Shown: piece after piece, positions 61,981 to 64,000 of the stretch | Numbering within the stretch: position 1 is the stretch's first letter | Layout: the number at the start of each line of letters is the position of its first letter | Source of the DNA: Peiella sedimenti | GTDB lineage: Bacteria > Pseudomonadota > Alphaproteobacteria > Caulobacterales > Caulobacteraceae | Direction: 5' to 3' | Length of the DNA: 64,000 nt | Assembly: GCF_030504955.1 (NCBI RefSeq) | Contig: NZ_JAUKTR010000001.1 | Span: 497,501 to 561,500, forward strand | Program-made: the position numbers and the translations under genes | Notes under the pieces: generated by a model | The model's input: the letters and a program-made list of their open reading frames with translations, nothing else | The model's database searches: none | Told to the model about the DNA's origin: nothing

Positions 61981-62466
61981 CTACTGGCTGCTGACTTCCG
62001 ATACGTACAGGCGCGCCGGCTGGCTGGAGCCTGCGCGGTAGGTGCCGACCCAGATCTCGTAACGCCCGCCACGCGGATTGTTGAAGCGCACGGCCGGGTT
62101 CATGCCGTTCACGCCGCCGTCGTCATCGCAGTACCAGCGGCCGTCGGGCGCGTTGACGATCAGCGTCGTATCCGATCCCGAATCCACCGAAATGATCAGC
62201 GGCAGGACGCCGGTGCCGCCGGTGTAGTTCAGGCGCACGTCCGGCGCGTTGGTGATGAAGCCGCTGCAACCCGAGGCGGCGTTGCTGGCCGGGATGTCGC
62301 CGCCGGCGCGCAGGGACACCACGCGGGGATCGTTCGGAAATCCGGCGGACAGGGACATCGTCCCGTAGTTCGGGTCGGCGTTCGTGTCCTGGGCGGCCAC
62401 GGGCGCGGCGCAGGCGAGGATGGCGGCGGCGGCGGTCAGGCCGAGCGCCTTATGGATGACGGTCAT
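61981..62466 (-). CDS. Exported protein with PPC-like domain
   Basis: 161 residues with a signal peptide (ALGLTAAAAILACAAPVAAQ). The mature part is beta-rich, with SGFITNAPDVRLNYTGGTGV, SDTTLIVNAPDGRWYCDDDG and RGGRYEIWVGTYRAGSSQPA. It resembles pre-peptidase C-terminal (PPC) type beta-sandwiches; C47 and C118 may pair. The partner is unknown. The terminator at 61929-61959 lies downstream. Confidence 0.82.
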   Translation of the reverse strand: MTVIHKALGLTAAAAILACAAPVAAQDTNADPNYGTMSLSAGFPNDPRVVSLRAGGDIPASNAASGCSGFITNAPDVRLNYTGGTGVLPLIISVDSGSDTTLIVNAPDGRWYCDDDGGVNGMNPAVRFNNPRGGRYEIWVGTYRAGSSQPARLYVSEVSSQ

Positions 62467-62560: not shown

Positions 62561-63016
62561 ATGGCGGGCGAGGTCTGGTTCTATCATCTGGAGCGCTCGG
62601 TGCTGGACCAGGCGCTGCCCGATCTGCTGGACAAGACCCTGTCCAAGGGCTGGCGCGCCCTGGTCCGAGTGCGCGATCCCGACCGACTGGAGGCGCTGGA
62701 CGACGCCCTGTGGTCGTGGCGGGACGACTCCTTTCTGGCCCACGGCCGCGACGATCAGGCGCATGCCGAGCGCCAGCCGATCCTGATGGGCGGAGAGGGG
62801 GCGGTGAACCTCAACGGCGCTCAGGCGCTGTTCATCGTCGATGGCGCAGAGGCGGGCGACGCGGACGCCTTCGAGCGCTGCGTGATTCTATTCGACGGGC
62901 GCGACCCGGAGCAGGTCGAGGCGGAGCGAGCCAGATGGAAGCGGCTGAAAGGGCAAGGGCTGAAGGTGACCTACTGGCGGCAGGAGGAGTCCGGCCGCTG
63001 GGCGCAGATGGCCTGA
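62561..63016 (+). CDS. holC: DNA polymerase III chi subunit
   Basis: 151 residues: VWFYHLERSVLDQALPDLLD, the HolC start motif, then GWRALVRVRDPDRLEALDDA and LWSWRDDSFLAHG. It links the clamp loader to SSB. The pepA-holC order is common. The stop shares bases with the CTG start of the next lipoprotein gene. Confidence 0.93.
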   Translation: MAGEVWFYHLERSVLDQALPDLLDKTLSKGWRALVRVRDPDRLEALDDALWSWRDDSFLAHGRDDQAHAERQPILMGGEGAVNLNGAQALFIVDGAEAGDADAFERCVILFDGRDPEQVEAERARWKRLKGQGLKVTYWRQEESGRWAQMA

Positions 63017-63357
63017 CGTCTCGCCTGCTCAAGGCTGTCGCCGCGACCGCCCTGCTGGCCCTGAGCGCCTGTGCGGCGGATACGCCCGGCGCCTCGGAGC
63101 CGCGCGTCGTCTACAATCCCGTGCCGGCCGTGCGGCAGTCGGCGCGCGCGCCCCAGCCCGTGCCGGATCAGTGTGGCGCGTCGGACTATCAGGAACTCAT
63201 CGGGCGCCCGCGCACTGAGATTCCATTGGCCGCCGACATCAGCAATCGGCGTGTCGCGTGCACCACCTGCCCCATCACGGAGGAGTACATGCCCCGACGC
63301 CTCAACTTCTTCTACGACCGCGAAACCGGACTTGTGGAGAGTGTTCGATGCGGATGA
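63013..63357 (+). CDS. I78-like inhibitor lipoprotein 1, CTG start
   Basis: 114 residues if started at CTG 63013, the only codon giving a normal signal peptide (LLKAVAATALLALSAC, lipobox LSAC). No ATG, GTG or TTG stands in frame near it. The C-terminal domain matches peptidase inhibitor family I78: CGASDYQELIGRP, then RVACTTCPITEEYMPRRLNF and DRETGLVESVRCG. I78 proteins normally have a proline-glycine near the reactive loop; here a CTTC motif stands there. CTGA overlaps the holC stop by 4 bp. Confidence 0.83.
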   Translation: MTSRLLKAVAATALLALSACAADTPGASEPRVVYNPVPAVRQSARAPQPVPDQCGASDYQELIGRPRTEIPLAADISNRRVACTTCPITEEYMPRRLNFFYDRETGLVESVRCG

Positions 63358-63620
63358 TGCTGGGCTTGCTCGCCCTGGGCGCCACGGCGGCGTGCGCGCC
63401 CGTTCCGGCCCCTGCGCCTCCCGTGGCCGACGACTATTGCCGAGCGCGCGACTACCAGCACCTCATAGGCGCGAACGTCGCCGCTGTGAGCTTTCCGGCA
63501 GGCGCGAACGTCCGAGTGGTCTGCACCACCTGTCCCATGACGAGGGACTATCGTCGTGATCGTCTGAACGTCCTGTTCGACGAGCCTACCGGCATCATTC
63601 GGGAGGTCCGTTGTGGGTAG
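63348..63620 (+). CDS. I78-like inhibitor lipoprotein 2
   Basis: 90 residues from ATG 63348, which lies inside the end of copy 1 (10-bp overlap). The signal peptide MRMMLGLLALGATAAC has the lipobox TAAC. The I78-like domain follows directly: CRARDYQHLIGANVAAVSFP, VRVVCTTCPMTRDYRRDRLN, DEPTGIIREVRCG. It keeps the CTTC motif. It should be anchored in the outer membrane or kept in the inner one; the residue after Cys (A) favours the outer membrane. Confidence 0.88.
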   Translation: MRMMLGLLALGATAACAPVPAPAPPVADDYCRARDYQHLIGANVAAVSFPAGANVRVVCTTCPMTRDYRRDRLNVLFDEPTGIIREVRCG

Positions 63621-63897
63621 ATCGACGCTCATCGGATGGGCGGGCCTGGTCCTCGCGGGTTGCGCGGCCGCCCCTGAACCCATGCCGCCGCCGGGCACGG
63701 GCGAGGGCGATCAGTGCGGCGCGGCCGCCAACCAGCACCTGATCGGGCGAAACATCGCCGCCGTCAGCTTTCCGGCGGACGCCAATGTGCGGGTGGCCTG
63801 CACCACCTGCGCCGTCACCATGGACTACAGTCCCACGCGGCTGAACGTCTTCTTCGATCAGGACAGCGGTCTGATCCGCGAAGTCCGCTGTGGCTAG
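63613..63897 (+). CDS. I78-like inhibitor lipoprotein 3
   Basis: 94 residues from GTG 63613, overlapping copy 2 by 8 bp. Signal peptide with lipobox LAGC (about residues 14-17), a proline-rich spacer, then CGAAANQHLIGRNIAAVSFP, VRVACTTCAVTMDYSPTRLN and DQDSGLIREVRCG. Closest to copy 2 in the mature part. The TMDYSPTRLNV segment is the clearest match to the canonical I78 pattern VTMDFRPNRLNV. Confidence 0.9.
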   Translation: MGRSTLIGWAGLVLAGCAAAPEPMPPPGTGEGDQCGAAANQHLIGRNIAAVSFPADANVRVACTTCAVTMDYSPTRLNVFFDQDSGLIREVRCG

Positions 63898-64000
63898 GTG
63901 GGGACTTCCGGCGGCGCTGACGCTGACCTTATGCGCCTGCGCCGAGCCGCCGCCTGCCAGGTCGGAACCGCCGCCGGGCCGGGTTCCGGCGTCGCCGACC
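63890..64000 (+). CDS. Fourth lipoprotein of the array (partial)
   Basis: Starts at GTG 63890 with 8 bp overlap on copy 3 and runs off the window. The 37 codons visible give a signal peptide with lipobox LCAC (WGLPAALTLTLCAC) and a proline-rich spacer AEPPPARSEPPPGRV, the same build as copies 1 to 3. The I78-like domain, if present, lies beyond the edge. Confidence 0.7.
   Translation, partial: MARWGLPAALTLTLCACAEPPPARSEPPPGRVPASPT

Follow-up and report, generated by a model that had tools for sequence, protein, structure and literature searches.

The 64,000-nucleotide stretch of Peiella sedimenti analyzed here (Caulobacteraceae; contig NZ_JAUKTR010000001.1, positions 497,501 to 561,500), referred to below as the window, ends inside an array of four overlapping genes located 3′ of holC (positions 63013 to 64345, with overlaps of 10, 8, and 8 bp). 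With a probability of roughly two in three, we consider that these genes encode four envelope lipoproteins acting as canonical serine-protease inhibitors, with a partitioned set of P1 residues and a reactive loop clamped by a Cys-x-x-Cys (CxxC) motif. The P1 residues are Glu, Arg, and Met in copies 1 to 3 and Asp in copy 4. In the 106 distinct loci compared, which include 72 with more than one copy, such domains form a natural series in which the scaffold, P2, and P1′ are constant and P1 varies by gene. This partition is a new result and the part of the analysis most deserving attention.

Every copy has the same layout, i.e., a signal peptide, a lipobox, a linker, and a domain of ca. 60 residues. 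Lipobox-like signals were present in all four window copies (LSAC, TAAC, LAGC, and LCAC), and a loose lipobox pattern preceded the domain in 210 of 214 copies compared. By their signal peptide with lipobox and Cys, the window copies are bacterial lipoproteins, with lipidation predicted. Copy 4 carries a true fourth domain, as a profile built without it (A2) matched it with 46.6 bits (E 1.1e-11). A preliminary description of the window, made from its letters, had proposed a tandem of lipoprotein genes overlapping by 8 to 10 bp and probably four in number, and both points held: beyond position 64000, copy 4 continues as a full domain. No fifth copy was found in the sequence read to 572000 of the contig, where a DUF6481 gene comes directly after copy 4, and a profile search detected no further domain of this type elsewhere in the 2.64-Mb genome (next match, E 0.41).

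Predicted inhibitor fold and register of the reactive loop

Only copy 3 lies above the gathering cut-off of the Pfam I78 family (PF11720, 23.6 bits); copies 1 and 2 score below it (Table 1), and copy 4 had no Pfam or NCBIfam match. The I78 pattern of the preliminary description was therefore borne out for copy 3 and by the profile matches below, while copies 1, 2, and 4 fail the cut-off. Since all four nevertheless match the family profile A2, we refer to the group as an I78-related branch and not as four certified members. In a set of PDB sequences, the Aspergillus fumigatus elastase inhibitor AFUEI, an I78 protein (PDB 3w0d and 3w0e), was retrieved (as 3w0d) by profile A2 at E 4e-4 and by profile A3 at E 1.6e-8; the latter also found LUTI (E 4.5e-4) and the chains of eglin c and CI-2 (E 0.005 and weaker). 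A single-sequence search of the same set with copy 3 gave no match. An hhalign comparison with AFUEI reached 96.4%, with the last Cys aligned. The structure model of copy 3 (pLDDT 88.9, pTM 0.74) had AFUEI as its top Foldseek match (E 4e-3, probability 1.00), followed by CI-2 and eglin c, and displayed the helix, strands, and convex loop of the solved potato inhibitor I members. These models place the array domain, with its CxxC, on a divergent branch akin to I78 that uses a predicted potato-inhibitor-I scaffold.

The resemblance to AFUEI extends to domain length, an R-V near the loop, the T-M-E reactive segment followed by R-L-N, the terminal cysteines, and the predicted fold. Unlike the array proteins, AFUEI is a purified fungal protein, with no lipoprotein array and with Met only at P1. 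The published AFUEI sequence reads RVLHPGDMITMEY in the matching stretch (PMC8954713, as excerpted). The array segment T-x-D/E aligns with TME of AFUEI, TKD of LUTI, and TKD or TRD of the eglin c chains, and because of this register it is assigned to P2, P1, and P1′; the predicted reactive bond thus follows x and lies downstream of CTTC. By the same alignment, CTTC occupies P8 to P5, the N-terminal hinge of the loop; the AFUEI counterpart is HPGD. Residues 39 to 50 make up the binding loop of rBTI, with P1 at Arg45, which enters the trypsin pocket (excerpts of PMC3115953), and CxxC would accordingly span the N-terminal hinge. The rBTI disulfide Cys4-Cys49 links the N terminus with the loop on its C-terminal side, according to the same excerpts, and so differs in position from the array CxxC, which is on the N-terminal side. 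The earlier proposal, in which CTTC replaces a reactive-loop Pro-Gly, put the key site in the wrong place: CTTC as the reactive site was rejected, given that the alignments put P1 right after the Thr that follows the motif.

The Pro-Gly-type turn ahead of the reactive segment, typical of AFUEI and of many I78 domains sampled (a yardstick of our own rather than a published one), is missing from all four window copies. In its place are CTTC in copies 1 to 3 and AQDQ in copy 4, which also ends in VACY instead of the VRCG of the others.

To describe the domain we used a table of 214 CxxC copies, from which copies without CxxC or shorter than 56 amino acids (including the cut third copy of L102) had been dropped, so that the CxxC cysteine columns are invariant by construction. 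P2 was Thr in 212, P1′ Asp or Glu in 209, and P6′ Arg in 209; a contact between P2 and P6′ has been described for LUTI (PMC3115953, in excerpt). The predicted fold and these three positions are shared with the potato inhibitor I family (eglin c, CI-2, LUTI, rBTI, and the bitter gourd trypsin inhibitor). In contrast, P8′ is Asn in 206 copies, Thr in 7, and Ser in 1, where the family proper usually has Arg (or Trp; PMC3115953). The cysteines at the start (C1, 214/214) and end (C60, 213/214) of the domain, already noted in the preliminary description, are also present in the four window copies and are an ordinary I78 feature common to AFUEI.

The family is no chance resemblance: of 131 genus genomes, 122 had an I78 match at E ≤ 0.01 (81 above the Pfam cut-off, many with two or three adjacent matches), and at the level of the order the CTTC-domain profile matched 167 of the 299 genomes. 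At 30 genus loci from the Pfam-based search, the best-scoring among the 122 positive genomes, CxxC was present in 76 of 83 distinct domains; the remaining seven are copy-4-type or last copies, one of which (L003) is alone in its locus. CTTC is thus not an oddity of the window array. Over 137 loci, most of them picked with CxxC queries, 207 of 216 distinct domains had the motif, with a variable middle pair (CTTC 173, CTSC 12, CSSC 7, CSTC 6, CTEC 3, and others). The sister family, whose loci, like those of the other families examined, were the best scorers of a CxxC profile, has CHDC, CHNC, CAEC, and CHAC. Family f3 of the same order had at least one CxxC copy in eight of nine loci examined, often alongside copies without it, and families f4 and f5 had none in eight loci.

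The matches from beyond the order came from samples of the class, where 23 of 289 genomes had a Pfam I78 match, and of the phylum, where 53 of 299 did. Among 75 such distinct domain matches, some of them partial, CxxC appeared in one. CTTC was likewise discarded as a general I78 trait, since CxxC was present in 1 of 76 distinct matches besides that of the window itself (L228; L229 is from the same order); it is also absent from the characterized inhibitor AFUEI, which has HPGD there. As a clade trait, CxxC belongs to Caulobacteraceae together with one other family of the order. The copy in L228, with CSTC and Met at P1, comes from another alphaproteobacterial family and may represent a separate origin or a transfer. 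Caulobacter and Phenylobacterium have mostly one copy, and it is in Brevundimonas that the branch has expanded, giving an array of lipoproteins among which the P1 residues are partitioned.

P1 residues across the arrays

In the P1 table, identical arrays were counted once, loci were considered single-copy when a single copy lay within the stretch fetched, and L153 and L154 were not included. P1 was Met at all 33 tabulated single-copy loci. In the 72 multi-copy loci, the residues in gene order were EMR (15), EM (14), EMK (13), MR (9), and others (21), and Brevundimonas arrays have mostly E, M, and R or K. Exactly one Met was found in 70 of the 72 arrays and all-different P1 residues in 71, compared with means of 32.9 (maximum, 46) and 39.5 (maximum, 51) arrays, respectively, in 2000 shuffles of residues among copies, a comparison that ignores relatedness. 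Some loci came from a scan with the pattern C[TS][TSV]C[PA]xT[MER]D[YF], of which the best 80 of 207 were used, and this pattern and choice favor CxxC and Met, Glu, or Arg. By source, the multi-copy arrays with exactly one Met numbered 27 of 28 and 18 of 19 in the two sets not derived from the pattern, and all 45 in the pattern set.

Among 146 within-array pairs, there were 145 with a difference at P1, 14 at P1′, and 4 at P2. Some further columns vary within arrays almost as often, so that what singles out P1 is the contrast with its fixed neighbors. When copies were clustered with the P1 column omitted, three types emerged: a1 (slot 1, with few exceptions the leading gene), b2, and c3. An a1 copy with Met was never accompanied by a second Met in the array (43/43), and where a1 was not Met, another copy was (61/63). 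Likewise, c3 carried Met in seven cases, never with a second one, and in 46 of the 47 where it did not, Met was elsewhere. The b2-type copies kept Met in 53 of 54. Comparing presence of b2 with Met on another copy over 104 loci, 53 had only the former, 50 only the latter, one neither, and none both. Thus, where the usual Met paralog (b2) is missing, another copy mostly carries the Met. This includes the window array, which has no b2-type copy but two of c3 type, namely copy 2 with Arg and copy 3 with Met. The Met is likewise on a c3-type copy in the B. halotolerans group (Leu instead in one member), and on a1 in the group that includes B. subvibrioides and B. bacteroides.

The rate of P1 change differs by type, from fast in c3 (different in 49% of near and 70% of middling pairs) to moderate in a1 and hardly any in b2 (2%). 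The idea of P1 as the fastest column everywhere was abandoned, because P1 of slots 1 and 2 is not among the fastest columns. The first copies of the B. halotolerans group (L013, L014, L021, L034, and L035) keep Glu at P1 and carry Ala at P1′, and five of the copies have Leu at P6′ as well; on account of these two residues they may be losing inhibitor function.

Proposed function and rival explanations

Met at P1 suits subtilisin and chymotrypsin- or elastase-like enzymes, Arg or Lys trypsin-like enzymes, and Glu Glu-specific enzymes. Each copy would present a loop of rigid, convex shape, and its P2-Thr, P1, P1′-Asp/Glu bond would enter the protease active site as a substrate does but be cut very slowly, with P1 fixing the target class: Glu-specific for copy 1, trypsin-like for copy 2, subtilisin, chymotrypsin, or elastase-like for copy 3, and the class corresponding to Asp for copy 4. 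In copies 1 to 3, a disulfide within the CxxC that replaces the Pro-Gly turn at the P8-P5 hinge would clamp the loop; such a putative local bond is the simplest reading, because the proteins are expected to sit outside the cytoplasm. Selection would maintain the set and not a given gene, with one Met copy nearly always there, whichever paralog carries it. As targets we favor, by inference, proteases from outside, those of competitors or predators of aquatic and soil habitats. The suggestion that serial duplication had given a set against several proteases now fits best, as the copies, predicted inhibitors, differ exactly at P1.

A lipid-anchored bacterial inhibitor that shields the envelope from outside proteases is known in Brucella Omp19, an analogy and not an established relative, which in the excerpted account has no array (PMC6607954). 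Duplication yielding inhibitors of differing function is also found in the tandem-duplicated serpins that inhibit snake venom, animal proteins with another fold and another mechanism (PMC12646145, in excerpt). No functional study of bacterial I78 proteins was found in the literature searched, a search that mostly did not extend to subscription journals; the I78 works found were, judging by titles, in silico studies of bacterial proteins and Aspergillus studies. If the proposed function is correct, one codon would predict the target class of each gene, the defensive role of bacterial envelope inhibitors would become directly testable, and the CxxC hinge would add another natural means of stiffening a much-studied loop.

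A bolder version of the proposal is possible but doubtful. It envisages a heritable antiprotease code in Caulobacteraceae, in which selection acts on the P1 set, Met is taken over by another copy when the Met paralog is lost, and the copies thus freed move to Glu, Arg/Lys, Gln, or His. CxxC would then be a redox lock making the inhibitor rigid only once oxidized outside the cytoplasm.

The array inhibitors could instead serve housekeeping and not defense, by acting on envelope proteases that the bacterium itself makes, whether HtrA/Deg-type or secreted S8. The window genome has five trypsin-fold (PF00089) matches, S8 peptidase matches occur in 94 of 131 genomes of the genus, the array adjoins the housekeeping gene holC, and I78 matches are present in nearly the whole genus. 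Yet the window genome keeps a Met copy with no S8 match, which weakens an obligate self-S8 target, and an I78 match was found in 19 of 20 S8-less genus genomes considered (17 others lay outside this subset). HtrA enzymes favor small aliphatic P1 residues, a preference that differs from E, R, and M, and several target enzymes fit the variety of P1 better, so that we regard self-directed inhibition as unlikely. It is quite improbable that CxxC marks a metal-binding or thiol-redox protein that kept the inhibitor fold and lost inhibition. The middle pair varies between two constant cysteines, also in the sister family, as such a role would have it, although sampling largely favored CxxC. Conservation of P2, P1′, and P6′, together with P1 differing in nearly all within-array pairs, would not be predicted by a metal or redox role, and just two cysteines would be free for metal if the outer two pair as usual for the fold.

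The P1 differences might also have arisen by neutral drift among duplicated copies, with shared ancestry counted repeatedly as the source of the one-Met pattern. On a tree of HolC and a1, a quick tree with many weak forks and a long branch leading to the window row, only three changes accounted for Met on a1 and five for presence of another Met, and P1 of slots 1 and 2, being outside the fastest columns, points the same way. On the other hand, b2 presence required six changes and Met on a non-b2 copy seven, with no locus having both and one neither; the window and the B. halotolerans group have Met on a slot-3-type copy; and drift would not lead one to expect the fixity of P2 and P1′. Overall, drift seems to us rather unlikely. 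Some observations do weigh against a selected P1 set. The arrays are related, and their counts therefore overstate the evidence; the independent evolutionary cases behind the P1 set are few; and some sister-family arrays break the rule, with two Met in L155 and two Gln each in L140 and L151. In an independent-pairs test of a1 Met versus other Met, four well-supported pairs were available (two as predicted, none against, and two with no difference), and b2 versus other-copy Met gave two such pairs, both as predicted; p was 0.5.

Organization of the locus and start codons

Table 1. Genes of the array and its upstream neighbors (positions in the window, continued beyond 64000 for copy 4)
Feature	Position	Strand	Description
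161-aa (amino acid) protein	61981..62466	-	Signal-like start; weak PPC (pre-peptidase C-terminal) match, E 0.0014, below cut-off
holC (DNA polymerase III chi)	62561..63016	+	PF04364, E 3.1e-33; stop overlaps candidate start of copy 1
Copy 1, a1 (slot-1) type	63013..63357	+	CTTC 63259-63270; P1 Glu 63280-63282; PF11720 16.9 bits
Copy 2, c3 (slot-3) type	63348..63620 (or from ATG 63354)	+	CTTC 63522-63533; P1 Arg 63543-63545; PF11720 18.9 bits
Copy 3, c3 (slot-3) type	63613..63897	+	GTG start; CTTC 63799-63810; P1 Met 63820-63822; PF11720 30 bits
Copy 4	63890..64345 (63890..64000 inside the window)	+	GTG start; 151 aa, long linker; P1 Asp 64268-64270

The gene order is M17 aminopeptidase, the weak-PPC protein (between the aminopeptidase and holC), holC, copies 1 to 4, and the DUF6481 gene. 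holC was present on the same strand at 104 of 105 tabulated array loci. No partner protease was seen beside the array among the neighbors examined (M17 aminopeptidase, PPC-domain protein, holC, and DUF6481).

No ATG, GTG, or TTG was found in the 75 bases 5′ of position 63013, and the start candidates of copy 1 are CTG at 62998 and CTG at 63013. An in-frame ATG within holC at 62935 would put an unusually long stretch ahead of the signal peptide. The codon overlapping the holC stop was ATG in 29 of 33 single-copy loci (an ATGA overlap) and CTG in 65 of 71 multi-copy loci, of which 55 also had a CTG 15 bases (five codons) upstream; both places are mostly constrained to NTG by the Trp and stop codons of holC itself. 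Since CTG prevails where single-copy relatives have ATG, the first gene of most Brevundimonas arrays would begin at CTG or at a start deeper within holC, both as candidate starts.

Copies 3 and 4 each start at a GTG that sits within the terminal Cys-Gly codons (TGT GGN) of the preceding copy (63606-63620 and 63883-63897), and conserved codons therefore serve also as start sites. A motif ahead of the domain is common to three copies (63890-64165 in the extended window, L138, and L157), which comprise copy-4-type copies and a sister-family copy, in the forms GRQVKTYFGD, GRQTDIYFGD, and TGPYYFGD, and is possibly part of an extra small domain.
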